Of a DNA stretch of 64,000 bases, positions 1 through 64,000 are shown piece after piece; the stretch's first letter is position 1; every line of letters starts with the position of its first letter. Source of the stretch: Paramecium tetraurelia (Eukaryota; Ciliophora; Oligohymenophorea; Peniculida; Parameciidae); the NCBI RefSeq assembly GCF_000165425.1, contig NW_001799399.1, positions 700,196 to 764,195 on the forward strand, read 5' to 3'. The position numbers were made by a program, and so were the translations under genes. A model generated the notes under the pieces. It was not told the origin of the DNA. It saw only the letters and a list, made by a program, of their open reading frames with translations, and searched no databases.

Positions 1-3000
1 TTTAAGTTTGATAATTAAAAATTTAGTGGAGAATACTCTTGGAGTGGTTGGTTCAAATGGTCTAGTGTTATTTAAAATGCATGGCATTTAGCTGTTAGAT
101 TGTCTACACTTGAAAATTATGAGAACAAAGATAGTTTGGGAGATAGAACATTATGTTTATGGGTTGGACAATAAGCTGGTGGAGTCCTCTATTTCTCTAC
201 TTATACTTATACAGACTTCTATGGCTCAGGAAATGCAAATAGTGTATAGAATGTTTAGTATAAGGATGATATTGCGAAGTGGCATTTTATTTATTTTGGA
301 TATTCAAGAGTTTAATAATTGGCTTATGGCAAAGTGGAATTTGGATATAGAAAAGAAGAAGTCAAATTCGAGAATCATCATCATTATTTACCTAACAAAT
401 TCTTTTTGTCAGTTGGCAGAGACAAATGGCATGATCCTTATTTGGGAAACATAGCCTTCTTAAGATTCTAATCAGGAGAAGGAGCATTTCATTAAGGAGA
501 ATTCAAGGAGATAAAAGATGATCTATTTGCTAATAAATTAGGATCTATGGAATTATTGAAATCTAAATTGAAATTTGATATTGATAAAGATGCTATCACT
601 AAGATGTTTGCATCCCCATAGGTTGATCAAAAGGAACCAATATTCTCTAAGATTTTCAATGAGGAAGAATTGGACAATGTCTCTGAATATGGTTACGGAT
701 TCTGGTGTAGATTTCTCACAAGGTATCCCACTCAATTAATTGAAGGATTAAAAGCAGATTGGTCATTCATATCTAGATTAACCAAAAACTAAAATAAAGG
801 GGATATGAATTATGGCGATAGAACTTTGGCTATCTGGTTAGGGAAAGGTTTTTATCATTTCACAACATATTCTCATAAATTAGCTAATGTAGTTCATAAC
901 ATTGATCATCCAGTAGACATCGAAGGATTATGGACATTTATTTATTTTTCACATAATCTATACAAAAAAGAAAGTGTAGCTATGATTAAGTTTGGAGAAG
1001 GGAAAGTGATAAAAGGAGTTATTCCAGCTATTCATTAGAGTCCAACCTTTTTGCAATTGTATATAGGAGGTAATAATATGAAGTATGCTGCCTACAATGG
1101 ATAATTTGCAGGAATATTGTTTTCAATTGGGGAAGGAATCTTCTTATAAAGTGAGACAGATTTGGAAAAATTGTTAGATAAATTGAAAAAACCAAATGAT
1201 TATAGTTTAAAATTGTAGACAAGGGATATGATTGCAAAGCCTAAGTAGTCCTTTGTTGCTTAAGAGATAGTATTTGATGATGTTCCATTGGTTGGTCAAT
1301 ATTCTTGGAGTGGTTGGTTTAAATGGAAATAAATGGGATAATAGTTTCCATGGTATCTCATGGTTAGATTAGCTATAATTAGAAATACAAGTGATATGAA
1401 ATTATTAGGAGATAGAACTTTAATGGCATTCATGGGTCAAGGTTATATTCACTTTACAACCTACACTTATAAAAATATATATGGTGAGGGTACTCCAAAT
1501 ATTTGGTAGAACATCAACCATGATGGAGAACATATATAATGGCATTTTGTGTACTTTGGGTATTCGAGAGCATAAAGATTGGCTTATGCAAGAGTAAACT
1601 TTGATGGTGGGATTGAGTCTGTTTCATTCAAAGAAACCAACCATTTTGTTCCAAATGTATTTGCTTTAACTATAGGAAAAGATAAATGGTTCAATTAGTA
1701 TAATGGAGACATTGGATACTTTAAATTTAATGCAGGAGAAGGGGCATTCCAAACTGAAAATTATGACAAAGTTTAGAATGATATATTTGCATTCAAAATT
1801 GGAAGGCTATATACTGTAAATCCTTATAAACCACCTCCAGAAGAATTGAGAAAACAAGAATAATTTGACAACACTTTGGAAGGGTAAACAGTCTATTCAT
1901 TTGAAATATCAAAAGATATTTATGAATAATCTATATCATCTCATGTTCCCGAAATTATAGGAGAAAAAGGAGAGATTGTTAAAAATACTGAGTAGATTGA
2001 AGAGGAGAAAAAAATACTATAGAAAAAGGAAGAAGAATTGAAGAAAGAAGCTGAAAAGTTCAAGAATGAAAAATCAGTAGGAATAAAAGATGGTCATTAC
2101 CAATCCCCTGATTAAGATTAGAAGAAAGTTGTATCAGATGAATCAATTGATATTGTTAAACCCATCCAAGATTAACCAAAGAAAGATGGAGAATAACCAA
2201 AATAATAAGAATAGCAATAATAAAAATAATCAGATTGGGATGGATTAAGATTCTACGGGTATGGTTTCTATTTGAGATATCTTACAATGTATCCGTAACA
2301 ATTAAGAGATGGTAAATTTGCCCCTTAATACTTCGTATCTAGATTGACCTGGAACCCTTAACCCTAAGATGTTGGTATGGGAGATAGAGTACTAACTATC
2401 TTTTAAGGATAAGGATCTTATAGTTTCCACACTCTAGATAGGCCATCCAATAATCCTAATCTAAGAACTGCTATTCCCTATGCAGATATAGAAGGAGTTT
2501 GGACCTTTGTTTATTTCAGCTATTCACAAGTAGATAAGAAGGCTATAGCATTCATCAAGTATGACAACAACGCTGAACTATACAGAAGAGATATCATATG
2601 CAATCATGGAGACGTTGAGTATTTAAAGTTGATGATTGGAGGAAAATAAGGTATTTATTAAGGATTCAATGGTTAAATTGCCAATTATGCTTTTAAGTAT
2701 GGCAAAGGAGCCTATGTAAATGACTTTGAGTTGTTCAAGAGGATTCTGTCTAATAGAATACCTCATCCCATTGCTGATGATTACAAGTTTAATCAAATTA
2801 AAATAATTGAGGATTCAACAGGTTTCAAAGGAGATGATTAGACTGATAGTATTAAAGAAATAGAGAGTCACTTCTAAAATGAATATGCAATAAGTGGATG
2901 GTTGAGATGGGATTAACCTATTGGATCACCGTTCTTTGCTCTTTTTAGATTGAGTGGATTCAAAGTAGAAGATAATAACGATTCCAAATTAGGGGACAGA

Positions 3001-6000
3001 GACATGATGCTATTCAAACATTACTCATACTATTTATTCCAATCATACAATTATCATAATTTGAATGGAGCAGGAGACTTTGTTATTAATTGGTCAGTGA
3101 ATCACTAAGAATGGGATCAGTTTTGGCACTTTTTCTATATTGGTTATAAGCGAGAGAGCAAACAACTCTATTATTACATGTCATTTGTTGATGATGAATT
3201 CGATCAAGTGCATAATAACATCCATCATTTCATCGTTCATAAACATTATCTCCAATTTGGAAGAGACTACAGTAAATTCTATAGTAAACACAGAGGATTC
3301 ACAGGATAAGCCACTCAGGTCTTATTGAGCTATGGTAAAGGATCATTCCAAACTAAACCATTTAATAATGATATCTTCATGTATATGAAAGGAGTTAAAG
3401 AATTGTTTTCATCTCTAGAATTAATCACAAGGGAAAGTGACAGAAATAAATTGCTGGTTGCCGATGCCAATAAACAAGGCACACTAATGGATCTAGAAAT
3501 CAATGATGGAACTGACTATAACATTAGAGGATTGAATGAGTATGGTTGGGCCTTGTGGTGCAGATGGTCGAGGACATTGAATCGACCTATCTCATTCAAA
3601 GATTATTGGTACTCTCTTGCTAGAATTGCCAACAGAAAGGGTCACCAAGACTTGGCAACCCCAGGAGACAGAACATTAGCTACTTGGATAGGCATGGGAT
3701 TCTATTCTTTTAGTACTTACTCCAAAGGAGTCTTACAAGTAACAGACACTATTCCCTATGGGAGGTATGAAGGATAATGGAATTTTATTGTTTTTACATA
3801 TCGGAAAAATATGGCTAAGGCAAGTGTTCTCTTTGGACAAGATTAAAATATTGTAGAAAGAGAGTTCAAAGTAAAACACAACTTGATTAAAGATTATTTA
3901 AGATTCGTTGTTGGTTCAGAATTCCATTATAAATTCTTTAATGGGCATATAGTAAATATCCAACTCAGATTAGGCAGCGGAGCCTATTTAAGCAAAGAGG
4001 AAATAGTAATCATTGCACATGGAGAATTAGGATTACCTGCAGAATCCAAATATGATTAGAGTAGAAAAACTGTTGAAATTGTAAAGGGACGAATTTCTAA
4101 TTCTGGGCAAGGCAGAGAACATGAGATCAAAGAAGAAGTTGCTTAAGGGAAATTAGAGTATTCAATATCCGGCTGGGCTAAATGGGTAGATATACCAAAT
4201 ATATAACCCTGGTATATGTTATATCGTGTCTCATACTATGATTATAATGACCTATTGAATATGGAAATACCTGGATCAAGAATCTTTTAGTGTCATAAAG
4301 CTTATGGATATTATCATTTTAATACGTACACAGTGGATTAGGAGAATGGAGGAGCATGGTACATTACGAAGAATATTGACTACGATATAACATAACATAA
4401 AAATTGGGTCTTTTTCTATTAAGGATATTCTCACTCTAAACGCTAGGTTCATATTTATATTAAATTCCCTGGATTTGAAGAACACTATACATATAACAAC
4501 ATAAATCATTTTGTTGCATAGAAATTTAAGGTTCATTTTCTATTGGATAGATGGAGTCCAGGGTTCAATGGTTTTCTTGAGAGTTGGTACTTTAATGTTG
4601 GTTCTGGATCGTATAAAGAAAGTGGATACGGTATAGGTGAAAATGAAGAAACTACATTTGGGTTTGGATTGCATAAACCAGCTGAACCAAAGAATTGGTA
4701 ATTTAATGATAATTATGCATGTGGATTTACATAATAAAATGTTGGATAAGAAGTGGAATATAAGGACGATCTACAAATAGATGGATTAGTTGAATATGGA
4801 TATGGGATGTGGACTAGATTTGCTTGGAATACCCCAATTAAGATGATCAATAAACCAACCTGGATGGCATTGTCAAGATTGACAGTTAATCCAAACTATT
4901 ATGGAGATGCTGGTTAATTGGGAGACAGAGCTCTGGCTATTTGGGTTGGACCTGGATACTATCATTTTACAACATCAACTAGAGGAAATTACAATGTAGT
5001 TCATAACATAGAATACGATCAAATGTTGGATGGATAATGGAATTACATTTGGTATGGATATAAAAGAATGAATGATAAGCAGGGCAGTGCAATTGGTTAT
5101 GTAGCATTTGAAGGCTCATTGATAAGAAAGACAAATTTAGGTAATATTCTCCAACAACCCTTGAATGACTATTTATATTTGGCTGTAGGAAGTTCAGGCA
5201 GATACTTTTTGGATAGGTACTATCAATTCAATGGTCACATCTAAAAGGTGTCTTTGGTGTTAGGACCTGGAGGTTACTTTGAAAATGAAGATCTATTGAG
5301 AAAGTAAATCCCATCGAAACCAGACTTCTTGAGAAATCTAAAGCAATTTTCCAAGGCAGTTGTAGATGAGATCAAAGTTCTGAAGAGAGAGGAATGGGTA
5401 CCATAACCTGTAGAATTCAATGAAGAGTTTGATGGTGCTTATGAATATTCAGTTTCATTGTGGTTTAAGTGGACTAAAACTTATAGAGTGGCATGGGAGA
5501 ATGTATTCTCAGTGTCCTATAATGAATAAAACATCAGAGCAAATCATGCTAAGCCTGGAGATAGAGTTTTGTCTATGTTTTAATATGCAGATCACAGAAT
5601 ATTCTTCAGTACATATACAACTCCAGGCAATCATGACTAATTCGCTCATTTGTACACTGAATGTCCAGTAGATATTCCATCACAAAATGAGTGGGTTTAT
5701 GGATATTATGCATATAGTAGATATCAAAACAAGGTGATATCATATTTGCAAACCAAAACATAAAAGTGCTTAAAGGCACTGTCTTGTATGCATAGAGTAC
5801 CTAAGTACATGGGATTATATGTGGGCAAAGATGGTATTCATACACCTTACAATGGTAAGTTCAGCAAATTATATTTTATGGGGAATGCAGGTTCCTATAT
5901 TGAAGGTAATTTCCAATCCTTCCAACCTTTTGCTGCTGGAGGCATATCAATTACAAAACCACCCTATTTTTGGAGCGATTAGAAGGAAAGATTTGAGATC

Positions 6001-8430
6001 GCTTATGATTAAAATAAAGTATTTGAATTAAAACCTGACGAGGTTGATGAATAGACATCTTATAGTATAGGTATGTGGACAAAATACTTTACTGCTATTC
6101 CAAAAAGACTGCTTCAAAAGCCAGATTGGTTACATATTGCTCGTTTAACAATTAATCCTAATCATAAAAACTATGAAAATATTGGAGATAGAACTTTGGC
6201 CATTTTTATTGGAAGATAATATTATGGATTCTTTACTTATAATGCTGCTAATAACAATCCCAATATTGTTTAAAATATTAGATATGACGATAATTTAGAA
6301 GGGGAATGGAATTTCATTTATTTCTCTTATAATTCTGAAATGCAATTGGCATCTGGTTTTGTAAAATTCAATAAACTCGATAAGATCTAAAGAATTCAAT
6401 TCAGAGACATTTAACATCGACCAATTGATAATTATGCCAAATTAGTAATAGGAAATGAGTTCTAGTATTAGGGATTCAATGGGTAGATTGTCAGTCTGTA
6501 GTTAGGATTTGGTAAGAAATATTACATACATGACTCAGATGCTCTGAATAAAATCATTCTTGAATTCTTTAAAACTCCTGCTGAGGAAGAGGACGATAAC
6601 AGAAAAATTAACATTGTTGACTAAGTTAAAGAAAGGGTCTTTAATAATGGGCCTGATTATAAGGAAATCTTAGATTAGAAAGGTGCTGAAGAGTATGCTA
6701 TGTATGGGTGGTTTAGATATACAAGTACGTCATTAAAGACTCCAAATAATTGCATAATGAGATTAACCAATAATGAATAAGCATACAGGGGTGAAATAAG
6801 TAGAGTTGGAGATAGAACATTATTAGTGATGTTGCAGCCAGGTGAATATGTGTTTGCCACTTATTCTCTTGGTAACATTGACAATGGATAAGTTGTGAAC
6901 ATCAGAAGACCTACACCATATAAAGGCAACCTTGGAATTTGGACTTACATTTACTTTGGCTATCATTTCTCAAAGAGAAGGGCATCAGGAATCATCAAGT
7001 ATCCGAATAGTTACGCACTAGTACCTTACGAAAATGTCTTACATATGGTTCCGAACTATCTATTATTCTTTTTTGGAGGAGATGGAATGCTTGGAGGATG
7101 GCATGGTTAGATGTAAAAAGTTAACTTGTTGTTTGGCCGAGGATCTTTTGTAGATTGTAATAAAGGAAACTTCGAAGAAAAATTGCCTAATCTTTAAGGA
7201 GTTGAATCTAAGCCATTGATATGGGATGGAATAGACAATAAAATTATTGAAGTGCCATTAACAGATAGACCAGGATTAGATATTGTATTTAATAAGGATG
7301 TAAGTGGATTTACAGAATATGGCTATGGATTATGGACTAGATGGCTGACTACTATTCCGAAGAGAATAATAGAAAAGGCTCCATTTAATTAATTGATCAG
7401 ATTGTGTAGTACTGAATAATATGAAGATGCTGCTTAATTGGGTAATAGGGCATTGGCAATTTGGGTTGGTAAAGGCTATTATCACTTTACAACTTACAAT
7501 ACAATTGGAAACAAGATTTCTATTTATCAAAATATCAACTATGATGACAATTTGGAAGGAGAATGGAATTATATTTATTATTCATTCACTAATAAGCAAT
7601 AGGCAAGAGCTGTTGGATTTGTATATTTTAGTGAGTAAGCAGGTACAGCTATCTCTCGAGTTGAGTTTTTGAACTTAGCTCATGTGCCTCTCAATGGATA
7701 TGCTAGAGTTGTGGCTGCCAATAAGGAGTTTGGGTATTAGTCATTTAATGGAATGATTGCAGATTTGCAAATTCATTTAGGAAATGGATTCATCGGTTCT
7801 AGAGAGTAATTGATCAAAGAAATCATTCAACTTAATCCAAGACCACCCATTGAAATCATATCTAAAATGGATGTTAATTTGATTAAAACTGAAGTTGTCA
7901 TTAAGCCTGAAGAAAGGAAAGAGATGAAATACAAATATGATTAATACAAAGGTGTAAATGAATATGCAGTATCTGGGTGGTTGTAATCTAAAGTAATGGG
8001 TTTGACAGAAGCTTATAGAAATGTATTTAGATTGACTATCAATGCACCAGATTTCTAGAGAGATAAATAGTATGCAGGAGATAGAACTCTATCTTTATTC
8101 TAAAGTAAGACTAAGTTAACATTTTCAACTTACACATTTGGAAAATTAGATTAGTAAGGAGATGATAGCAATGAATTTAACAGAATCATTAATTCAGGGA
8201 ATAGTAATGGAGAGTGGGTGTTTGTGTACTTTGGATATTAATTCAAATCGAAACAAGCCTTTGCATTCACCCTATTCATGAATCATTAGGATAGTGCTCA
8301 ATTCAATAACATCAGACATTTTGTTCCTAATTAATTCTTCTTCTCTTTGAGTAATGATGGATATTATCCAATATTTGATGGCAGTTTATATGATTGGAAT
8401 CTTTACTTCGGCGATGGTGCATTCACTAAG
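1..8430 (+). repeat. Array of 13 diverged alternating A/B domains
   Basis: Seven B and six A domains alternate strictly with a period of about 1.25-1.3 kb per A+B pair. Copies are much more diverged from each other than those in the array at 50620-64000: several have lost the EYGYG opening or the GDRTL core (for example the A domain near 3535 opens EYGWALWCRW and the A domain near 6050 opens TSYSIGMWTKY). The frame is intact throughout, so the divergence looks like selection on distinct copies and not decay. Confidence 0.85.
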
Positions 8431-8793
8431 AGACCAAGAGAGATAATTAATTCATGGCCTGTAGAACCAATTGAAGAATTCGAAGGAGTGATCTCTGCAC
8501 TATTATCAAATAAAGGTTTAAATTCTATGAAAGTGATAAGACCTGAGAAAAAGGAAGATGAGGAAATTGTTTTTAAGAATAATTTCCCTAAATCTGGAGC
8601 AATTTCAGGAAATCCACAACCAAGATCTGGTTAAACTTAAGTTGATTCTAAATAACCAAATACAATAACTTAAACTGTTAAATAACCTGTATCAGGTTAG
8701 GTTAATACTTAATAATAATAATAATAATAATAATAATCATAATAATAACAATAAGCTAGAAAACCATTATCTGGAATAGCAGATCCCAAGTGA
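1..8793 (+). CDS. Giant secreted-type protein of alternating jelly-roll-like domains, 3' part (paralogue 1)
   Basis: One frame stays open from base 1 to the TGA at 8791-8793 without an intron, giving 2,930 residues; the 5' end lies outside the window. The protein alternates two related domain types of about 210 residues. Type B starts with a motif like EYSWSGWFKW, type A with EYGYGFWxRF. B domains begin near 31, 1297, 2870, 4150, 5430, 6680 and 7950; A domains near 685, 2233, 3535, 4780, 6050 and 7310. Each carries the same series of short aromatic strands: W..F.RLT, GDRTLxIW, YYHFTT, GxWTYIYYxYS and a terminal FNGxxxxxxF. I read this as a LamG/ConA-like sandwich (inference from strand pattern, not a database hit). 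A charged K/E/Q linker lies at 1860-2230 and a Q-rich tail ends the protein. Function unknown; a surface or secreted structural role is plausible because the paralogue at 49715 begins with a signal peptide. Confidence 0.85.
8710..8754 (+). repeat. TAA-triplet run encoding polyglutamine tail
   Basis: Nine consecutive TAA codons, one TCA, then five more glutamine codons (four TAA, one CAA). With the ciliate code this is Q9-S-Q5 just before the C-terminus of the giant protein. It is a microsatellite that would be a run of stops under the standard code. Length variation between strains is likely. Confidence 0.9.
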
Positions 8794-49714: not shown

Positions 49715-52700
49715 ATGAAGAAATCTTCATTAATATTGCTATTGTTTTTGATATGTTCGCTACAAGGTAAAAGTGGTTAAAATGGAATTTTAGCGTAACA
49801 GTTTCTTGAACTATAAAGCGGAGTTAAATTACAATCGCTTGAAGAATTGAATAATTTGGATACAAGCAGTCTAGATTGTTCTCCAGGCCTGTCATAAGTG
49901 AGCAAATCTATGGAAGCTTGGCAGGAGATACTTTCTAACCCTGACTAGATAGATAATGATATTGATAATTTGAGAAAACTGAAAGTTGCAGTGTCTGATT
50001 ACAGAAAATCAGAAGGAGAGAAGACAAGTACACATAATCACAATATTTTAGCATTATTGCAATATCACAGCACAAAGGGTTCGTTTGCATTTGTTTAATT
50101 AAGACAAAGCGAAAGAGATGGCTTGTTACAATAATGGAGACAATATGGTCAAAATATATTGGATGGTTAATTGAATCTATTGGATGCTGCCTCAACAAAA
50201 GAAGATGCAGATGAATGTTGCGATAAAATTGAGGACTTAATCAATAAGCTCTTAAGCGAAAGAGAATAAATAAAAGAGCAATGCAAACAACCATCAGTAA
50301 TTTATTTAAGTAATCCATCTAGATAACAATCAACATCATCAATTCCAAATCAACTGATGTTCAAAAGAGAGTTGAGTCTTGTTCCAAGGATGGAATCATC
50401 ATAAACACAGACGATGACAAGAAAATCATCATCAGACCTGGAGATGGAAGTGCACCAGAATCTGAAGAAGAGCCCGTTAGTGCCTCAGCATTGGTGAGTT
50501 CATCCGACTCCGAAGATGATGAGGACACCGTTAATAAGAAACAACCCTCAGATTACACTAACGATAAACCTATCAGAACTGCTGAAGTTGACAACGAGGA
50601 AGAAGAAGGAACAGAAGATTTGGTTGAATATGGTTATGGATATTGGGCTAGATTTATGTTGGCCTATCCAAAGTTCATGCCTAAAGGTAAGGATGCACCT
50701 TGGTACTTTGTGTCAAGATTGTCCTCTAACAAAAATACAGATAATATCAACATGGGAGACAGACTCTTGGCTATTTGGTTAGGCAAAGGATACTATCATT
50801 TCACCACATGTGACAAACCTTAAAATCAACCCAATATTGCTAAGAATGTGGATTATCCTGAAAATTTGGATGGCGTTTGGACTTACATCTACTATTCATA
50901 CAGTTCAGAGAAGAAAAAGGCTGTTGCTTACATTAAATTTGGAGAAAACGACTTTAAGAAGGTAGAGCATGAGGTTACACATCCAACAACAAAGTTCGTT
51001 AGATTCACTGTTGGTGGCACAGATGAAAAGAGATACCCAGGATTCAATGGTTTATTGAGTGCCATCTACTTCAGTGCTAAGAGAGGAGTCTTCATTGATA
51101 ATGATGAAGACATTCAAGCAAAATTACAGTCCATGAAGAAAATTCCTAAGGACTTTATTCCTGACATCGTCACTTACAAAGTCACAACCAATCCCATCAC
51201 AAGAAAACCAGAAGACAGAGAAGTACATTAAATAGTTGGTACCACTTCAACTCCTAAATTCCCTCATGAATATGGCATTAGTGGATGGTTCAAATGGACA
51301 CCAACTGATAAACAATAAGATTGGCACAACATCTTCAGAGTTTAGATTCAAACTCCATCAACTGACAAATTCCTAGGAGACAGAACCTTATCAGCTTGGG
51401 TTGGAAAATAAGATGGAGGCATCATTCATTTACCTACCTACACTCTTACTGACCTTGAAGGTAATGGGAATGCAAATCTCTTCAAGAATGTTCCTCACAA
51501 AAATAGACATAATCAATGGTTCTTTGTTTACTTTGGATATTCTAGACCATAATAGAAGGCTAAGGCTTACATCAGATGGACAGATTCAGAAGATCATTAA
51601 GAATATGAAAATGTTAGACATTTCACTGTTCCCAAATATTACATCTTTGTTGGAAAAGATAAGCACTTCCCAGGATTCAGCGGAGACGTTGCTTTGGTGG
51701 CATTCAATATTGGAGAAGGTGCATTTAGACCAGGAAATGATTTCAAAGCCAAGAACGATGCTTTCAATGCAGTGGTTGGATAAAAACAATTGTTAGGAAA
51801 ATAACCAGATGGCAAAGTTAAAGAGAAGGAGGATGAAGATGATGACGATGGTATTACTACTCCAAGTTCTACTGATGACAATAAGCCTAAAATTGATGAG
51901 ACCAAAGAATCTGAAGAAGAGTTAGTTGAATATGGTTATGGATTTTGGGCTAGATTCTTAAGTGCCTATCCAGTTAGATTACTTAACGGAAAGAATGCTC
52001 CATGGTATTTCGTATCCAGATTGACATCCAACCAAAACTATGGAAATATTGCCATGGGAGATAGAACTTTAGCTACTTGGTTAGGACAAGGATATTATCA
52101 CTTTACTACATGTGATAAGAAATCAAACAATCCAAACGTTATTTAAAACATCAATTACCCCAATGACATCGAAGGTGTCTGGACATACATCTACTACTCC
52201 TACAGTGCCTAAGAAAATAAGGCTATTGCATTCATTAAATATGGAGATCTAGAACCAAGATCAATCATCCATAATGTCAATCACCCAACTACTAAATATG
52301 TTAGATTCATCTTAGGTGGAAAAGACAGCAATAGATATCCAGGATTTAATGGTTTGTTCAGTTAAATTGTTTTCTCTGCAAAAGAAGGAGCCTTCCTTGA
52401 TACCTTGGATGATTTCAAAGATCACATCTCTAGAACAATTATCCCAGTTCATGATTTGGACAGATTATACAAACATGAATTGGTTGAAGATACTATTTCA
52501 AGAAAAGTCAATGAAAACCCAATTTATGATGAATTAGGTGGTGGAGCTTAGAAATTCCCACATGAGTATGCTATCAGTGGTTGGTTCAAATGGGAACAAA
52601 CTTAATAATAAGTTTGGCACAATGTTTTCAGAGTTCAAATTAATAAAACCATCTACTGATAGATTCTTGGGAGACAGAACTCTTTCCTTTTGGATTGGTA

Positions 52701-55700
52701 CAGCATAAGGAGGTATTTTCCATTTCCCAACCTACACATACACCAACATGAATGGAGCTGGTAATCCCAATATGGTCAGCAATATCGTTCATAAGAATAG
52801 ACATTTGGAATGGTTCTTTGTTTACTTTGGATACTCTAAAAATGAGAGAAAAGGATTTGTAGGTGTGAAATTCACTGGAGGTATTGAAACTATTGAATAC
52901 AACAATGTCAATCATTATTACACTCCTTACTTCTACACATTTGTTGGAAAGGATAAGCAATTCCCAGGATTTAATGGTAAAATTGGATATGTCAACTTTG
53001 CTTTGGGAAGTGGCACTTTCAGAAAGACCCCAGATTTCAAACACCCTAATGATGTCTTCGGATTCGATAAAGGAGAATCAACTCTCCTAAAGAAACCAGA
53101 GTCAAAGAAACCATAACCTATCACAGATGAAACTGGTGAAAAGTAATTACCAAATGCTCACAATGAAAATAGTCCTAAAGTGATCAAAGAATTCAGATCT
53201 GATGTTGCCTTCACTGAATATGGTTACGGATTTTGGGCAAGATTCTTAACTGCTTACCCTGTCAAATTACCAAATGGTAAGAATGCCCCATGGTACTTTA
53301 TGGCTAGATTGACACAACATGAAAATTATGACAATATCAGAATGGGAGACAGAATCTTGGCAATCTGGTAAGGACAAGGATATTATCATTTCACTACCAA
53401 CAATGTTCAACCAGCCAATCCAAATGTGATCAGAAATATCAACTACCCATCTGATATTGAAGGTCTTTGGACACATTTCTATTTCTCTTACTCAAATACA
53501 GGAAAGGCTGTTGCAATTGTCAAATTTGGTGACTTGGATCCAGTGTCAGCCGAATTCCCTGTAAAACACCCTGATTTGAAATATCTTAAATTTATTTTGG
53601 GTGGAAAAGATTAAAATAGATACCCAGGTTTCAACGGACAATTCACCTAAGTAGTCTACTCAACTTCAGTGGGTGCATTCATTGATTCTGTTGATAGTCA
53701 CAAAAAGTTCTTTGCTGATAAGGCATCTCCACTCAAAGGAGGAAAGGTACCACTTTCAACTACAAGAATCATTGATTCCCAAGTTGATAGACAAGCTAAC
53801 TCAGATCCAACCAAGACAACAGTCGACACCGTGTTCCCTAAAGAATATGCCTTCTCTGGTTGGTTCAAATGGTCATAACCTACTCCATAATAAGCTTGGC
53901 ACAATCTTTTCAGAGTCTAAATTTCTTAACCATCAACAGACAGAAATTTAGGAGATAGAACTTTGGCTGGTTGGGTAGGAAATGGAGGAATCATTCATTT
54001 GACCACATACTCATACAGAAATATGAATGGAGCTGGACCAAATAATTTGCCATAAGATATTCCACACAAGAATAGACACTTCGATTGGTTCTTTGTTTAC
54101 TTTGGATACAACAAAAACGATAAGCAAGGATATGCTTATATCAAATGGAAGGACTCAGATGACAACTTAGACTTCAAAGACATTAACCATTACTTTGCTA
54201 ATAGATATTATGTCTTCACTGGTAGAGATGCTTAATTCCCAGGATTTAATGGAAAAGTCGCCTACGTTTCATTCAATGTAGGAGAGGGTGCCTCAAGAAG
54301 AGGAAGTGACTTCAGTCATCCAGATGATGCATTCAGATTTGATAAAGCTGGTTAATTGATTCCAAAAGTAGACCCATCCAAACCAAAGGTTGATGAGAAT
54401 ACAGTTCATGTCAACAAGGTTGATAACAATTCACCAAGAGTTGATGATGTTTTGAGATCTAACGATAATTTAGTTGAATATGGTTACGGATTTTGGGCTA
54501 GATTCTTAACAGCTTATCCAGTGAGATTGATATACGGAAAGAATCAACCATGGTACTTTGTCTCAAGATTGACCACTAATGAAGATTATGATAATGTGAG
54601 AATGGGAGACAGAGCATTGGCTATCTGGTAAGGATAAGGATACTATCATTTCACAACTTGCAATAAACAAAATGGAGCAGTCAATGTTATCCAAAATATC
54701 AACTACCCCAATGATATTGAAGGAGTTTGGACATACATTTACTATTCCTACAGTGCTGAAAAGAAGAAGGCTGTTGCATTCATCAAATATGGATCAGAAG
54801 ACTTTAAATCCATCACTCATTAAGTTGTTCACCCAACCACACAAAGTGTTAGATTTATTTTGGGAGGCATGGATGAGAAGAGATACCCAGCCTTTAATGG
54901 TGTTTTCACTAAAGTTGTTTACTCACATCAAGTTTGGAGTTTTTGTTGATTCAGTCGATAAATTATAGGCAGGTGTCATTCCATAAGTTCCAGTTGACTT
55001 AAGCAATACCAAGATAATTGAAAACCCAATTGAGAGATCAGTTTAAGTTGCTCCAACTGAAACCACAGTCGGCAAAGATGAAGAATTACCAAAATTACCC
55101 TAAGAATATGGCCTAAGCGGATGGTTCAGATGGACAAATACCTAATAATAAGTTTGGCATAACATTTTCAGAGTATCTATCAACACTCCAGCTAGTGACA
55201 GATTTTTGGGAGATAGAACACTCTCTCTATGGTTAGGTAATCAATAAGGTGGTATCTTGCATTTCCCTACTTATACTTACGTCAATATGAATGGTGCAGG
55301 AAACCCTAATGTTGTTTAAAATATTCAACATAAAAACAGACACAATAATTGGTTCTTTGTTTACTATGGCTATTCAAAGGTTAATAGACAAGCCTATGCT
55401 TATGTTAAATGGACAGATAGTGAAGATTCATTGAACTATGACAACATTAACCATTACTTTGCACCAAAATTCTTTATCTCAGTTGGAAAAGATAAGTTCT
55501 TCCCAGGATTCAATGGATTTGTTGCATTTGTTAATTTCAATCTTGGAAAAGGAAGCTACAGAAAAGGTAATGATTTCACTCATGATAATGATTTCTTCGG
55601 ATTTTCAACTGGTAAAGATAAATTGTTCCAACCACCTAAATAAGATGCTCTCCCAGAGGTTGAAAAAACAGTTCTTGCAAGTAAGACATCAGAAGATGCT

Positions 55701-58700
55701 CCAAAAGTCGATAGAGTTAGTCCTTAAGGCACAGATAATTTATTAGAATATGGTTATGGATTTTGGTTAAGATATTTAACAACTTATCCAGAAAGATAAG
55801 TCAATGGTAAGAATCAACCATGGTACTTCGTATCAAGATTGACTTGGAACAAGGAATATGATAATATCAGAATGGGAGACAGAACCTTAGCTGTCTGGTA
55901 AGGATAAGGATTCTATCACTTCACAACCTGCAATATCTAGAACAACAATGTCAATGTGATCAAGAATGTAGATTATCCAGATGACATTGAAGGTCTTTGG
56001 ACTTTTATTTACTATTCCTACAGCAAGAATGAAAACAGAGCCAAAGCCTTTATTAAGTATGGGGATGGCAATTTCTAAGAAGTTGATCACTAAGTCACTC
56101 ATTAACCAACTTAAATTGTTAGATTCATTTTGGGAGGTACAGATGAAAAGAGATACCCAGCTTTCAATGGTTTATTCACTTAAGTCTATTTCAACGCCAA
56201 AGTTGGTGCTTACATTGGCAGTGCAGATGCAGCTAAGAAGTTTGTTAATGAATTGTCACCTATTCCAAGAATCAGAGTCACTAATTTGATTAGTAAACCT
56301 ATTGTGTCAGATGAAATTGAAAGATAAGTTACAGACAAACCAACTGATGCTATTGTTGAAGAATAAAATCTACCAGATGAATACGGAATATCAGGTTGGT
56401 TCAAATGGAACGAAGTAGCCTAATAACCATGGCATAACATTTTCAGAGTTCAAATCAAGACTCCATCAACCGATGCATTCCTTGGAGATAGAACTCTTTC
56501 TTTATGGTTAGGAACTCCTGAAGGTGGTATCTTACACATGCCAACCTACTCATACACAAATATGAATGGAGCTGGTAATACCAATTATTGGAAGAACATT
56601 TAACATAAAGAAAGACACACTAAATGGTTCTTCGTTTACTTTGGATATTCAAAACCCAAGGCTTAAGCTTATGCCTATGTTAAATGGACTGATTCTGAAG
56701 ATTCTAACACCTATGATAAAGCTAATCACTATTACTCAGCAGTTTATTACATCTTTGTTGGTAAAGATCCACATTTCCCAGGATTCAATGGTAAATTAAA
56801 TTAAGTCACCTTTAATATTGGTGATGGATCATTCAGAACTGGAAATGATTTCACCCATCATAAGGATGTCTTTGGTTTCACTACTGGTTTAGATAAATAC
56901 ACAAAGAAAGCAGATGCTCCTTCAGTCAGACCAGGTGAAAAGGTATTAGAAAGTGCTGAAAATTCCAAGCCCCCTGTTTTAGATAAAGATGCTAATTCTG
57001 ATAAGAATTTAGAAACTTATGGTTACGGGTATTGGTTAAGATATTTGACTGCTCATCCATTTAGACAACTAAGTGGCAAGAATCAACCATGGTACTTTGT
57101 ATCTAGATTGACATGGAATAAGGAATATGATAATATCAGAATGGGAGACAGAGCTTTGGCTATCTGGTAAGGTTAAGGATACTATCATTTCACTGCATGC
57201 AATTCAAAGACTGGTAATGTGAACTAAATTCTCAACATTGATTATCCAGCTGACATCGAAGGATTATGGACATATGTCTATTATTCATTCAGCGTTGAGG
57301 AAAACTAAGCTGTTGGTTTTATCTAATTTGGTGAATCTGAACCTAAGCAAATTGTTCACAAAACATCACATGCTGCCACAAAATACGTCAGATTTTTATT
57401 GGGTGGTACTGATGAAAATAGATACCCTGCTTTCAATGGTCTATTCGCTGCAGTTTCATTCTAAACCCAAAATGCCTATATTGGAACAGTAGATGGATTC
57501 AAGAAATTAATTGCTTCAATCCCTATGCCTTCTCAAGGACTTAGAGATTTAACAACTTACAAATTAAGCGAAGTCATCACAAGAACACCAACTGACGAAA
57601 TCTCTAAAGAAGCCACTGTTGGAGGCGGCAAGGAACAATTCCCATCTGAATATGCTATTAGTGGATGGTTCTAATGGAAACCAATTGCCCAACAACCATG
57701 GCATAACCTCTTCAGAGTTACTCTTAAATAACCATCAACTGATAATTTCTTGGGTGACAGAACATTGACACTATGGGTTGGTACTCCAGAAGGAGGTATC
57801 TTACATTTCCCAACATATACATATGCAAATATGGTTGGAGGAGGAAATAACAATTACTGGAAGAATATTGTTCACAAGAATAGAATCAGAGAGTGGTTCT
57901 TTGTTTACTTCGGATACTCAAAGTCTAAAGCTCAAGCTAACGTTTATGTCAAATGGACTGATTCTGAAGATTCCTTATCATACGATAAAGCCAATCATTA
58001 CTATGCACCATAATTATACGTATTTTTGGGAAGAGACAAGCATTTCCCAGGACACAGTGGTAAAATTGCTTACATGAGATTTAATTTGGGTAATGGAGCT
58101 CATATTGATAATAACAAGTTTGATCATCCATAGGATGTAATTTGCATTTAAAGAAGGAACAGATAGATTATTCAAAAAAGATGAGTAACTCCTACCAGAT
58201 GAACCAACCAAGGATGTGTTTGAAAATGGATTTGAATAGAAAAAACCAGTTATTAATAAGGAAAGCCCATCTGAAAATGCCCTTGAAGAATATGGTTATG
58301 GTTTCTGGATGAGATTCTTGACTTCATATCCTTAAAGATTACCAAGTGGTAAGAATCAACCATGGTACTTCGTATCTAGATTGACATGGAATAAGGAATA
58401 CGATAATATTAGAATGGGAGACAGAACCCTCGCTATTTGGTAAGGATAAGGGTACTATCACTTCACAACTTGCAACTCAGTAGACAATAATCCAAACTAC
58501 ATTTAAAACAATAACTACCCAGAAGATATTGAAGGACTTTGGACCTATGTCTATTATTCATACAGTGATAACAAGAATAGAGCAGTTGGTTTTATTAAAT
58601 ATGGAAATCAAGACTTCCAATCAATCAAACATGATACAACTCATGCAACTACAAAATATGTTAGATTCATATTAGGAGGTAATGACGAGGGTAGATATCC

Positions 58701-61700
58701 TGGATTCAATGGTTTATTCGCATCTGTTACCTTTGGCACAACAAGAGGAACTTTCATTGATAGCGTTGATTAAGTGAAGAACTATTTGGCTAAAGTTGGC
58801 ACACCTGCTTCTGAATTACCTGATTTATTCAACTACAAGATTGTCGATTCCATTTAGAGCAGAGCAGCTAATGATGAACCAGTATATAAAGTGGTTGGAA
58901 AAGATAATGAAAAATTCCCTCATGAATATGCAATTAGTGGATGGTTCAAGTGGTAACCAACAGCCTAATAACCATGGCATAACCTCTTCAGAGTTCAAAT
59001 CAAGACCCCATCAACTGATGCATTCCTAGGAGATAGAACTTTGACATGTTGGGTTGGTACAGCTGAAGGTGGTATCTTACACATGCCAACATACTCATAC
59101 ACAAATATGAATGGAGCTGGTAACACCAATTATTGGAAGAATATTTAACATAAAGATAGACACACCAAATGGTTCTGGGTCTACTTTGGCTATTCAAAAC
59201 CCAAGGCTTAAGCTTATGCCTTTGTTAAATGGACCGATTCTGAAGATTCTAATACCTATGATAAAGCCAATCATTACTTTGCACCAGAATTCCACATTTA
59301 TGCTGGAAGAGATAAGCATTATCCAGGACACAGCGGAGTTCTAGCTCATGTTTAATTCAATCTTGGAAAGGATGCTTTCAGAACAGGATCAGATTTCAAT
59401 CACCAAAATGATGTCTTTGGATTTGGAAAAGGAAAGGAGCTTGTTAAAGGACCTGCTGAGTTTAAACCAAAGGAAGCTGATAACACTATATTAACAAATG
59501 CTGCCAGTTAAGCTAAGCCAGTGATCGACTAAGAAGCCAAATCAGATGCTCCATTTGAACAATATGGATATGGATTCTGGTTGAGATTTTTGACAGCTCA
59601 CCCTGAAAGATTAATAAATGGCAAGAATCAACCATGGTACTTTGTTTCTAGATTGACATAATTTGAGAAATATGATAACATTAGATTGGGAGACAGAACT
59701 CTTGCTATTTGGTAAGGATAAGGATACTATCATTTCACAACATGCAGCATTGCACCATAAAATCCAAATTTAATCTAAAACATTGATTACCCTGCTGACA
59801 TTGAAGGTTTATGGACATATATTTACTATTCATACAGTGCTGACAGCAATAAAGCAGTTGCATTCATTAAATATGGAGATTAGGAAATTAAATCAATCAC
59901 TCACAAGACAACTCATGAAGCAGTTAAATATTTGAGATTCATTTTGGGAGGTAATGATGCTAATAGATATCCTGGATTCAATGGACAATTCACTTAAGTC
60001 ACTTTCTCAACAGATGGAGCCTTTGTTGATGATTCAGCCAAGATCAATGCCTACATTAAAAACAACAAAGCACCTTCAGTCGTTGTTGCATTACAAACCT
60101 ACAAATTGGTAGAGGATGCTATTACCAGAGATCAAAATGTAGAACCTCTTGAAAAGACTGTTCAAGTTGGATTACCATTAGAATATGCAATCAGTGGTTG
60201 GGTGAAATGGAAACCAACAGCCTAAGCACCTTGGCACAATCTCTTCAGAGTTAGCTTGAAAACTCCATCAACTGATGCATTCCTAGGAGATAGAACATTG
60301 ACATGCTGGATTGGTACTGCAGAAGGTGGTATCTTACATATGCCAACTTACACATACACCAATATGAATGGAGGAGGTAACAACAACTACTGGAAGAACA
60401 TTCAACACAAAGGAAAAATCAATGAATGGTTCTACATTTACTATGGATATTCCAAGATTTCAAGAAAGGCATATGCCTTTGTTAAATGGACTGAAGGAGA
60501 GGACTCTTTGAACTTCGATGACGTCAATCATTATCTTGCATAAACACTATACTTATTTGTTGGAAGAGATAAGCATTACCCAGGACACAGTGGTAAAATT
60601 GGTTACTTCAACTTCAATGCAGGTGAAGGATCATTTGTAACAGGAAATAAGTTTGATCATCCAAAGGATATCTTCGGATTTTCAATTGGATCAGACAAAT
60701 TGTTAACTCAAAAAGATACTGAATTAAAACCAGGAGTTCCAGTTACTGAACAATTGCCCAATGGATCAGAAGACAAGAAGCCAGTCATTGAGAAGGACTT
60801 GAATGCAGATCAAAATCTAGAAGAATATGGTTATGGATTCTGGATGAGGTTCTTAACAGCCTACCCTGCAAGATTGATATCAGGAAAGAATCAACCATGG
60901 TACTTTGTTTCAAGATTGACTCAACATGATCAATATGACAATATCAGAATGGGAGATAGAACATTGGCTATATGGTAAGGACAAGGATTCTACCACTTCA
61001 CAACTTGCAATTCAGTCAACAACAATCCAAATGTCATCCAAAACGTTGATTATCCAGCTGATATTGAAGGATTATGGACATATGTCTATTACTCATACAG
61101 TGATGATAAAGCAAGAGCAGTAGGACTCATCAAATATGGAAATGATGATATCAAGGCAATTCGTCATGATGTTACTCATCCTGGAACCAAACATGTCAAA
61201 TTCATTTTGGGTGGTAACGATGCAGGTAGATATCCAGGATTCAATGGTATTTTCACTTAAGTCACATTCAGTGCTGCACCTGGAGCTTTCATTGATTCTC
61301 CTGACAAATTAAAACCACATTTGGATAAGATTGGAACACCAAATTCAGTGATTAGTGAATTGACTAATACAGTTCTTGTGGACTCTTAAATTGCTAGAGA
61401 CAAAGGAACAGATCCTATTGAAAAGACAGTTGGAAGTGAGACCACAAGATTCCCACATGAATATGCAATCAGTGGTTGGTTCAAATGGACACCTACTGCA
61501 CAAGAAGCTTGGCATAATGTTTTCAGAGTCACTCTCAAAACACCTTCAACAGATGCTTTCTTGGGAGATAGAACCTTAACCTGTTGGGTTGGTACACCAG
61601 AAGGAGGTATTTTACACTTGCCAACCTATACTTATGCAAATATGAATGGAGCTGGAAATACAAACCTTTGGAAGAACATCCCACACAAAGAAAGACACAC

Positions 61701-64000
61701 TAAGTGGTTCTTCTTGTATTTCGGATACACAAAGTTACAATAGAAGGCTTACTCCTATGTTAAGTGGACTGATGGAGAAGACAGTTTGAAGTATGACAAT
61801 GTTAACCATTACTTGGCACCTCAATTCTTTGTATTTGTTGGTAGAGATAAGCACTTCCCAGGATTCAGTGGTAAATTGGCTTACGTCAACTTTAATGTTG
61901 GAGCAGGATCATTCAGAGGAGAGAACGACTTCAAGCATCCTAAAGATGTATTTGGCTTTGAAATTGGATAGAGCAAATTATTGGACTCAAAGAAAGGGGA
62001 CTTCAATCCAAGGGAATTACAAAAGGGTACAAATCTAGAGAATGCCTTTGAAAATGATAAGCCAACAATTGAAAAAGACGAATAATCAGGAGAGTTGCCA
62101 TTTGAAGAGTATGGTTATGGATTCTGGATGAGATTCTTGACTACCTATCCAAAGAGATTAATAAGTGGAAAGAATGCTCCTTGGTACTTCTTGTCAAGAT
62201 TGACATACAATGAGAAATATTAAGATATTGCTATGGGAGACAGAACATTAGCCATTTGGTAAGGATAAGGATTCTATCATTTCACAACTTGCAGTGTTGC
62301 ACCTGCTAATGTCAATTTGATTCAGAACGTCAACTTCCCAGAAGACATTGAAGGATTGTGGACATACGTTTATTACTCATACAGTGCTGATGAAAATAAG
62401 GCTGTTGCATTTATCAAGTATGGTGATGCAGATGTTCAATCGATCACTCACAAGACTACACATCCAGCTGTGAAATTCTTGAAATTCATCTTAGGAGGAA
62501 ATGACAACAAGAGATATCCAGGATTTAATGGTTAATTCAGAACAGTGACATTCTCAACACAATCTGGTGCCTATGTTGATAAGATGGATACAATCAATGA
62601 TTATGTGAGAACAAATCCAAGTCCATCAACATTAATTCCATTATAATCAAATCAAATCATCAAGGATCCAGTCTCAAGATAAGCTGGAGATGACTTAGTA
62701 CAGAAAAGATTTGGTGGTGACGATAACAAATTCCCATTAGAATATTCATATAGTGGATGGTATAAATGGATAGATGGACCTAATCTTAATGCTTGGTATA
62801 ACTTGTTCAGAGTAACAATCAAAGATCCATCAACAGATTAATTCTTAGGAGACAGAACATTGTCAGGATGGATTGGATTTGGTAACTTGCATGTGCCAAC
62901 CTACACTTATGCTAACATGAATGGTGCTGGTAATGTTAATCATTGGAAGAACATCGAACACAAGAACAGAATCTTCAAGTGGTTCTTTGTATACTTTGGA
63001 TATTCAAAGAAAGACTAATTGGCATATGCATGGGCTCAATGGTCGACAGGAGAGAAGGATTCTTAATCATGGGAGAAATGCAATCATTATTTGACTCCAG
63101 AATTCTTCGTGTATGTTGGAAGAGATAAGCATTTCTAAGGTTTGAATGGTCAATTGGGAGCAATCAATTTCAATTTGGGACAAGGATCATTCAGAAAGGG
63201 AAATGATTTCACTCACGATGAAGATATTTTCGGATACAATGCAGCATTCACAAAGAAATAACAAGCCTAATTCGATTTGGATAGCAGAGTTGCTAAGGTG
63301 TTGACATCTAGTGTTGATTAGAAGGATCCAACATTCACAAAGAATTTCAATGGTGATGAAGTAGACAATGTTAGTGAATATGGTTATGGATTTTGGTTGA
63401 GACACTTGAACATGTACCCAATTCCAACGAATAGAGGTGTTTAAGTTGATTGGACATTTGTGGCTAGATTGAGTAAGAATGAGAAATTGGCAGATATTGG
63501 TTTGGGTGATAGAGTGTTGGCAATTTGGTAAGGAAGAGGATACTATCACTTCACTACATACAATGGTGGAAATCCAAATAACATTAACAATGTCAATTTC
63601 CCATAATTATTGGATGGTCTGTGGACATTCATCTACTATTCTCACAATTTGGATAAGAAACAATCAATTTCATTTGTCAAATTTGGAGATGCTGACATTA
63701 TCAAGAATGTTATTGCAGCTGAACACTTACCACCCTTGTTATTGAAATTCTATTTAGGAGGACAAAACTTGGTTTACAAAGGATTTAATGGTCAATTCTC
63801 AGATGTGATTGTGTCAGCTAACAAAGGTGTTTTCGTTGAGAATATCGATGATATTAAGGCATTATTAGAGAAAGTAAAATAACCAGCTACCTATGTTCTT
63901 GATGTCAAGACTAAAAAGGTCATTGAAAAGGAAGCCATATTTAATGACAAGACAGAATAGAAGGAAATTGTTTATGATGATTTGGCTTTGGCTCCAGAAT
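49715..64000 (+). CDS. Giant secreted protein of alternating jelly-roll-like domains, 5' part (paralogue 2)
   Basis: Exon 1 is 49715-50296; a 26-nt intron (50297-50322) in phase 0 joins it to one long exon that runs past the window edge. The protein starts with a signal peptide (MKKSSLILLLFLICSLQG). About 185 residues of helical, Q-rich sequence follow, then an acidic linker (SEEEPVSASALVSSSDSEDD) and, from about 50620, alternating A and B jelly-roll-like domains to the end: 11 A and 10 B in the window. A domains open EYGYGFWARFLTAYP and carry MGDRTLAIWQGQGYYHFTTC; B domains open EYAISGWFKW and carry GGILHxPTYTY and WFFVYFGYSK. Three one-base frame breaks occur, at the A-run 52644-52647, at about 54923-54928 and at 58139-58140; across each the conserved domain resumes exactly one frame on, and none is explained by an intron. 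Likely secreted or surface-bound; partner unknown. Confidence 0.85.
50620..64000 (+). repeat. Array of 21 alternating, highly similar A/B domains
   Basis: A domains begin (first E of EYGYG or its equivalent) near 50625, 51928, 53216, 54476, 55746, 57012, 58288, 59557, 60823, 62107 and 63376. B domains begin near 51268, 52564, 53843, 55104, 56379, 57648, 58924, 60181, 61459 and 62739. The A-to-A period is 1.26-1.30 kb. Copies 2-10 are nearly interchangeable, also at the nucleotide level in stretches such as AAGAATCAACCATGGTACTT, pointing to recent unequal exchange or gene conversion. The last visible B and A copies are more divergent. The array continues beyond the window. Confidence 0.9.

Follow-up and report, generated by a model that had tools for sequence, protein, structure and literature searches.

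The window analysed here, a stretch of 64,000 nucleotides from Paramecium tetraurelia, holds part of a gene for a giant protein of strictly alternating A and B domains, and computation establishes the fold of these domains, the AB doublet as their strict unit, the strong purifying selection acting upon them, their membership in a large family and their loss of N-glycosylation sequons. What the molecule does is a more delicate matter, and we give roughly even chances to its being a giant soluble protein that enters the secretory pathway, a multivalent polymer of paired LamG-like beads that would serve as coat, extrusome scaffold or adhesive. The sequence-only reading of this DNA, which had proposed a giant secreted chain of lectin-like beads fitting no named family, is partly supported: the fold and the lack of a named family in the databases searched both stand, while the length was set too low and the molecule proves to be one of a large family.

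Only ciliate code 6 gives long open frames for this gene, which lies on the + strand with its ATG at 49715, a start that is matched in the paralog C69b. Three introns of 24-27 nt, all at positions common to the window gene and its paralogs, lie close to the 5' end and are followed by a single giant exon, which extends past the window until the contig runs out, at C177:770190, before the gene does. Exon 1 (49715..49766) encodes the start codon and a hydrophobic stretch (MKKSSLILLLFLICSLQ), predicted to be a signal peptide from the hydrophobic residues 6-16 of the product. Intron 1 (49767..49793; 27 nt, a multiple of 3, GTA...TAG) keeps its site in all five of the five genes examined; an alternative model that placed an intron at 49795-49818 was dropped, since the paralogs share the former instead. 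The first part of the head (exon 2, 49794..50027) is separated by intron 2 (50028..50051; 24 nt, GTA...TAG) from the second part (exon 3, 50052..50296), which carries conserved cysteines (CC...C); the site of intron 2 is common to C69b, C63 and C3, and the intron called there in C69a is 23 nt long. After intron 3 (50297..50322; 26 nt, GTA...TAG), the giant exon begins with the end of the head and the acidic linker (50323..50625). Crude propensities suggest that the head is helical (helix 1.03-1.05 and strand 0.96-0.99, vs 0.96-0.97 and 1.04 in the domains), and its mature part has five cysteines, an odd number. The linker is indeed acidic, as had been claimed, with 26 D/E vs 10 K/R over 92 residues in paralog C69b.

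Profile HMMs built from the window gene's own copies place exactly 21 domains inside the window, all on the + strand between 50626 and 63996 and spaced by about 212 aa. Domains of type A, with odd numbers from 1 to 21, occupy 50626..51267, 51928..52563, 53216..53842, 54476..55103, 55746..56378, 57015..57647, 58288..58923, 59560..60180, 60823..61458, 62107..62739 and 63376..63996, the latter being the last full domain in the window, as domain 22 starts at 63997. Domains of type B, with even numbers from 2 to 20, occupy 51268..51927, 52564..53215, 53843..54475, 55104..55745, 56379..57014, 57648..58287, 58924..59559, 60181..60822, 61459..62106 and 62740..63375. The same profiles find 31 domains in the window gene as cut by the contig end, 34 in each of three complete paralogs and 22 in a diverged paralog, and none once the sequences of these five proteins are shuffled. 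The complete paralogs, of about 7,570-7,610 aa and about 866 kDa, therefore contain 17 A/B pairs; the earlier estimate of at least 21 domains of about 210 residues holds for number and spacing within the window, but underestimates the length. In a tree of 154 of the 155 domains, one cut domain having been left out for its length, a single branch with support 1.0 parts 77/77 domains in odd positions from 77/77 in even positions. The alternation over 17 doublets is thus exact in the proteins examined, and a large part of the array predates the duplications from which its paralogs arose. In these respects the tandem array first noticed from the letters is confirmed, from its start, strand and code 6 frames to its domains and their strict alternation.

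A/B doublets occur at no fewer than 31 places in the genome. One of these is the C-terminal part of a second family member in the same window (1..8793, + strand), in which 13 domains lie in one frame that is open for 2,930 codons, with SG motifs close to its end (8581-8610 and 8755-8790) and a TGA stop at 8791-8793; its gene model can be followed for about 3.7 kb upstream of the window, where a TGA interrupts it. Relatives of the head at C2 and C211 have no domains within the 4 kb examined and were not counted as family members; for another head relative, on C60, tracing was halted by the end of the contig. The giants are under strong purifying selection, with dN/dS of 0.087 over 6,734 codons for the recent duplicates C177 and C69b, and of 0.133 over 7,563 codons for C63 and C3. 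The window gene has three single-base frame changes, near 52645 (in domain 4), 54935 (domain 7) and 58143 (domain 12), among 23 such changes in four genes. They consist of extra bases at sites that differ between duplicates and look like assembly errors; programmed frameshifting was rejected because no common motif was seen and the positions differ between duplicates. That the frame changes mark pseudogenes in a decaying repeat array is hardly credible in the face of these dN/dS values, of extra bases at sites that duplicates do not share and of the long open frame of the second member.

The sequence-only reading had assigned both domain types to a LamG/ConA-like sandwich and had proposed structure prediction with a fold search as a check. 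For the A-B pair of domains 13 and 14, AlphaFold2 returned beta-sandwiches (pLDDT 73.6, pTM 0.72) in one good model of five, the other four having pLDDT of 29-35, and no unrelated fold emerged. The best Foldseek matches in the PDB, among 148 with E <= 0.001, are laminin LG4-5 (E 5.7e-9) and neurexin LNS2-3 (E 7.0e-9), with 10-12% identity in the structural alignments and loose superpositions (rmsd of 5 A or more across the 50 matches listed); the matches in BFVD are general LamG/ConA-like folds. The good model, one of five, thus places the domains in the LamG/ConA-like superfamily as predicted. A model of four domains, including domains 15 and 16, is weak (pLDDT 63.9, pTM 0.44), too weak for a fold search. 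In blocks of ten residues, mean pLDDT is 24-37 in the B-to-A linkers, of about 48 residues and modelled as disordered, vs 63-89 in the A-to-B junctions, modelled as ordered; hence we infer that each AB doublet would be one rigid unit within a flexible chain. The residues conserved among the domains, mostly G, W, Y and a GDR motif, probably form the core and do not suffice to demonstrate a binding site. The Asp of GDR, a putative counterpart of the calcium ligand that LNS domains carry at the sandwich rim, is conserved at 95% in A and 99% in B. Carbohydrate binding is a candidate property suggested by the lectin-like fold.

The fold is old, yet the copies tested match no Pfam laminin-G model: with Laminin_G_3 (PF13385) and others, 0/10 A copies and 0/8 B copies match at E <= 10, a threshold at which HMMER filters discard most matches above about 0.1. 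Weak Pfam matches such as Herpes_TK_C, Tudor_3 and Leptin were attributed to chance, being below cut-off and not common to the copies. NCBIfam, for which two doublets and a portion of the head served as queries, gave only weak matches far below cut-off, and no PDB chain matches at the sequence level. Within Pfam, NCBIfam (for the parts queried) and PDB sequences, the claim that no named family fits is therefore upheld, and none of these searches identified the repeats as a named, characterised family. Across the genome, PF13385 matches seven places, six of them over cut-off, and none overlaps a match of the giant family; three places sit 5-6 kb from such a match (C54:76.7 kb, C60:229.0 kb and C148:4.5 kb). 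Two scans of viral contigs with the A and B profiles revealed no relatives. Among prokaryote contigs, the A profile has a single match, in a contig of a Bacteroidetes MAG (L036), of which bases 3-960 read as a B domain and the start of an A if 9 TAA and 4 TAG codons are translated as Gln; downstream of the match the frames are long and bacterial-looking. Although base composition is constant across the junction, we read this contig not as a prokaryote relative but as ciliate sequence probably joined by assembly. Among the open-access papers listed, no title or abstract start describes this giant family of A/B domains.

A new finding is the purge of N-glycosylation sequons, which was not expected and is a strong, directly testable indication of selection: four paralogs contain 17 of them, vs about 211 expected by shuffling. 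Each giant has 5, 5, 3 or 4 sequons, vs 49-54 after shuffling and 54-61 occurrences of the reversed motif. Since the copies are related, z-scores from shuffling overstate significance, which is partly corrected by counting alignment columns: within domains, the sequon occurs in 4 columns and the reversed motif in 35. Linkers are less depleted (1-3 found, 5-8 reversed). Sequons are also few in the window part of the second member (4 vs 17.3 expected) and in C81 (1 vs 14.1); the purge is nevertheless uneven across the family, as the diverged sister C69a has 19 vs 45. This depletion speaks for a route through the ER and for an avoidance of glycans. Controls show no depletion, be they 11 nearby signal-peptide-like ORFs (41 found, 29.8 expected) or 44 other ORFs (165 found, 167 expected).

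How would such a molecule work? Its parts would be a signal peptide, a Cys-bearing head, an acidic linker, 17 LamG-like A/B doublets and a hydrophilic, SG-rich tail devoid of anchor, the last bead pairs and tail of the window gene being taken from the complete paralogs, in which neither a membrane anchor nor a KDEL-like ending, a known C-terminal motif, was seen. The protein would resemble 17 double beads strung flexibly together, with a length in the range of 150 nm for an assumed bead size of about 4.5 nm; its head could link chains by disulfides, while the chain would bind glycans or other partners many times, each time weakly, as befits a structural or adhesive polymer. Bead surfaces free of N-glycans would prevent self-binding and preserve packing. 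The likeliest location would be the cortical secretory organelles, for storage and later release, or else a deposit in the cell coat. Since the protein has about 7,600 codons, four copies and strong purifying selection, it must be costly to the cell; hence, it may be an important component of the cell surface or of extrusomes that has so far escaped description in a classical model group.

Among the rivals to this soluble secretory polymer, an outward-facing fibre of the cell coat, ciliary surface or mating adhesins, its beads attaching to glycans on food or on partner cells, is possible though doubtful: it suits the lectin-like fold, the multivalency and the large family, but not the anchor-free tails of the three complete paralogs, nor an array that purifying selection keeps rather than diversifies. 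A bolder version of the preferred reading, only tentatively entertained, sees a new class of giants, an 866-kDa lectin-like polymer whose 34 beads are purged of sequons against self-recognition, a secretory counterpart of titin and a main structural product of cell surface or extrusomes, from a family of dozens of genes overlooked by domain databases. It loses probability through codon usage, which gives a mixed picture as to high expression. Some choices resemble those of a ribosomal protein exon: ATA makes up 0.09-0.15 of Ile codons in the four giants (0.35 in neighbours, 0.00 in RPL3) and CCA 0.70-0.77 of Pro codons (0.41 and 0.80), the reference being a single ribosomal protein exon of 219 codons; in Asn, Gly and third-position GC, the giants as a group show no shift towards this exon, and C69a is neighbour-like. 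It is rather unlikely that the giants are trichocyst cargo, a scaffold of tip or sheath, even if an ordered lattice would account for absent N-glycans and low cysteine, and signal peptide, anchor-free tails and sequon-purged domains agree with it. A LamG protein is described at the tip of the homologous organelle of Tetrahymena, the mucocyst (PMC9159632), but this protein, Mdl1p, has a mass of 40 kDa, sits in the membrane and carries a single LamG domain, and the known trichocyst matrix proteins, with 176 annotated genes in P. tetraurelia (PMC3091696), are presumably a different gene family. Less probable still is that they are never secreted and form a scaffold in the lumen of some permanent compartment such as the cortical alveoli, which would fit ER entry, the lack of an anchor and an acidic linker that perhaps binds calcium; nothing specific favours it, and the three C-termini have no KDEL-like end.

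Compared with known systems, the giants resemble the Paramecium surface (immobilisation) antigens in being large secreted repeat proteins. However, those antigens have a cysteine-rich periodic sequence and a GPI signal or anchor, whereas the four giants have 25-28 cysteines in 6,742-7,610 aa, and the complete paralogs have hydrophilic tails. Another ciliate parallel is Mdl1p, a LamG-bearing protein of the secretory pathway involved in mucocyst docking, which according to PMC9159632 has a predicted C-terminal transmembrane helix and conserved cysteine pairs. In contrast, the giants have 34 domains in about 866 kDa and no hydrophobic C-terminus, and fall outside its family. The LamG-domain proteins of Colpoda, whose abundance is reported to be highest in resting cysts (PMC11237667), can be set beside them by description as ciliate LamG proteins. 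The nearest relatives in structure are laminin LG4-5 and neurexin LNS, the best PDB matches, which share the beta-sandwich and the side-by-side pairing; the giants differ from them in matching neither Pfam laminin-G models nor PDB sequences, in having few cysteines beyond the head and in stringing together 34 copies of two alternating types.

The giant gene of the window (C177:700196-764195, in an assembly of 69 Mb and 231 contigs) starts at position 49715 on the forward strand, and translation keeps its frame open only with TAA and TAG read as Gln and TGA as stop. It has three introns on the same strand (49767-49793, 50028-50051 and 50297-50322) at positions common to its paralogs, the introns common to the giant genes being short (23-27 nt). 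After the third intron, a single exon exits the window and then runs off the contig end 6 kb further, giving approximately 6,740 codons up to that point. Domain HMMs made from the copies of this gene recognized 31 domains in it, exactly 21 of which lie inside the window, and 34 in each of three complete paralogs: C69b (C69, ~593981-616741), C63 (~126677-149515) and C3 (minus strand, inside the contig's first 40 kb). The diverged paralog C69a, at C69:540082, has 22 domains, and shuffled versions of the five proteins have none.

The two alternating domain types are akin to each other, for their profiles align with an HHalign probability of 99.65 at 31% identity, and mean pairwise identity in C69b is 0.44 within A and 0.41 within B versus 0.25 between A and B. 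We built a tree from 154 of the 155 domains, dropping one cut domain and labeling the others from odd or even position alone. A branch with support of 1.0 parts 77 odd from 77 even domains with zero exceptions; among the 34 positions, 22 form monophyletic groups across the giants and 12 do not. Because of this split and these monophyletic positions, the AB doublet is, on the evidence of the tree, the repeat unit, and much of the bead array is by the same evidence older than the duplications behind the paralogs.

The strand pattern had led the sequence-only reading to propose a LamG/ConA-like sandwich, and structure prediction agrees with this proposal. Among five models of the A-B pair at 58288-59559, computed from an alignment of seven window pairs, the best (pLDDT 73.6, pTM 0.72; the remaining four were poor, 29-35) has a secondary structure that is almost entirely beta. 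Its Foldseek matches in the PDB, 148 at E ≤ 0.001, are led by laminin alpha-2 LG4-5 (E 5.7e-9) and neurexin LNS2-3 (7.0e-9), followed by collagen IX NC4 and then by galectins, legume lectins and other ConA-like folds. TM-scores normalized by query length are low, 0.19-0.33 among the best 50 of the 148 matches; by the target's own length they reach 0.5-0.65 for some single-domain targets among the matches listed, with rmsd of at least 5 A. None of the 10 A and 8 B copies has a Pfam laminin-G match, even at E 10. Two other Pfam matches, each in a single one of these copies, were dismissed as chance. Pfam Laminin_G_3 itself occurs at seven places in the genome, six above the cut-off, and none overlaps the matches of the giant family. 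The beads thus have, according to the model, a LamG/ConA fold, yet by sequence they are not members of a named LamG family. Three of the Laminin_G_3 places (C54:76739, C60:229042 and C148:4497) lie 5-6 kb upstream of a family head or bead match on the same strand, and may belong either to a neighboring gene or to the family gene itself.

In two- and four-domain models, the latter weak (pTM 0.44), the A-to-B junction is ordered (block means 63-89) and the B-to-A linker disordered (24-37), from which we infer that the chain would be a string of 17 doublets. All four giants have six cysteines in their first 300 residues, five of them past the signal peptide, and 25-28 in the whole protein. All three complete giants end in a hydrophilic C-terminus in which SG motifs recur and which lacks a membrane anchor; C69b from residue 21 onward has 866 kDa and a pI of 6.6.

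The giants are strongly depleted in N-glycosylation sequons (N-x-S/T, x not P), with 5, 5, 3 and 4 found versus 49.4, 54.2, 53.5 and 54.0 expected by shuffling, while the reversed motif occurs 57, 61, 56 and 54 times. Of the 17 sequons, signal peptides account for two and a stretch of doubtful frame for one. Depletion at position +2 after Asn is by far strongest for Ser (13 vs. 102 expected) and Thr (4 vs. 111); Cys (1 vs. 6.9) and Met (8 vs. 19) are also low, and Asn and Pro high. Counting each alignment column once takes out much of the dependence among the copies and leaves three columns with a sequon in A and one in B, versus 18 and 17 with the reversed motif; linkers are depleted less (1-3 vs. 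5-8). Sequons are also few in the window's part of a second family member (4 vs. 17.3 expected) and in C81 (1 vs. 14.1), half purged in C69a (19 vs. 45), and 1 versus a small expectation of 3 in C230. Clear depletion is seen neither in 11 neighboring ORFs (z -1.9 to 1.1), nor in a crude set of 11 ORFs whose start is hydrophobic (41 vs. 29.8), nor in 44 other ORFs (165 vs. 167). We take this depletion as independent evidence of ER transit for the giants and of a presumed need to keep the surfaces of their beads unglycosylated.

The four giants form recent duplicate pairs nested in an older pair, with dN/dS of 0.087 for C177/C69b (6,734 codons) and 0.133 for C63/C3 (7,563 codons); comparisons of the older pairs, with dS above 1.2, give 0.24-0.26. 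Compared with one ribosomal protein exon (219 codons) and 13 neighboring ORFs, they are nearer the exon than those ORFs in Ile and Pro codons and overshoot it in Phe; as a group they show no shift towards it in Asn, Gly or third-position GC, and C69a is more akin to the neighboring ORFs. Codon usage gives a weak and mixed hint of high expression. We called 23 frame changes in the four giants. Comparison with the paralogs shows a length one base past a multiple of three in 18 stretches and an excess of two bases over the nearest paralog in four more; one case is ambiguous. The window's giant has single extra bases at 52645, 54935 and 58143 (forward strand), and the other three have the same type of insertion at different places; a clear deletion was never seen, and none of the 23 is common to recent duplicates. 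These changes look like uncorrected read errors.

Doublet matches from three protein searches of the genome group into at least 31 separate places on at least 24 contigs, and the head reaches further members on C230, C25 and, weakly, C148, which have long Glu-rich linkers behind it. Members L039, L040 and L041 share this head, with long Glu-rich linkers carrying EEG repeats ahead of the beads, and L041 has PGEEEKPEIPDEKGPEEK repeats; C69a (C69:540082-556730; L012 and L013) has short Gln-rich repeats of QTNQET type that span about 580 residues between bead pairs. The C-terminal part of the second member occupies window positions 1-8793 (forward strand) as one open frame that encodes 13 domains and finishes with SG motifs, without a frame change in these 8.8 kb. 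A matching head, pair of that at C69:540082, lies upstream at ~C177:693007; the gene model does not join the two, and upstream of the window there is apparently at least one switch of frame, via an intron or a frame change. Outside this genome, the sole trace found of the family is in bases 3-960 of L036, a contig binned as Bacteroidetes, which holds ciliate-coded (TAA/TAG = Gln) B-A domains and is probably the product of contamination or mis-assembly in a publicly available bin.

In functional terms, the evidence on balance favors, at about even odds, a multivalent structural polymer, secreted or luminal, for which cell coat, adhesin and extrusome cargo are the candidate roles. Leads come from other ciliates: a LamG protein is located at mucocyst tips in Tetrahymena (PMC9159632), and LamG proteins of Colpoda are reported to peak in abundance in resting cysts (PMC11237667).
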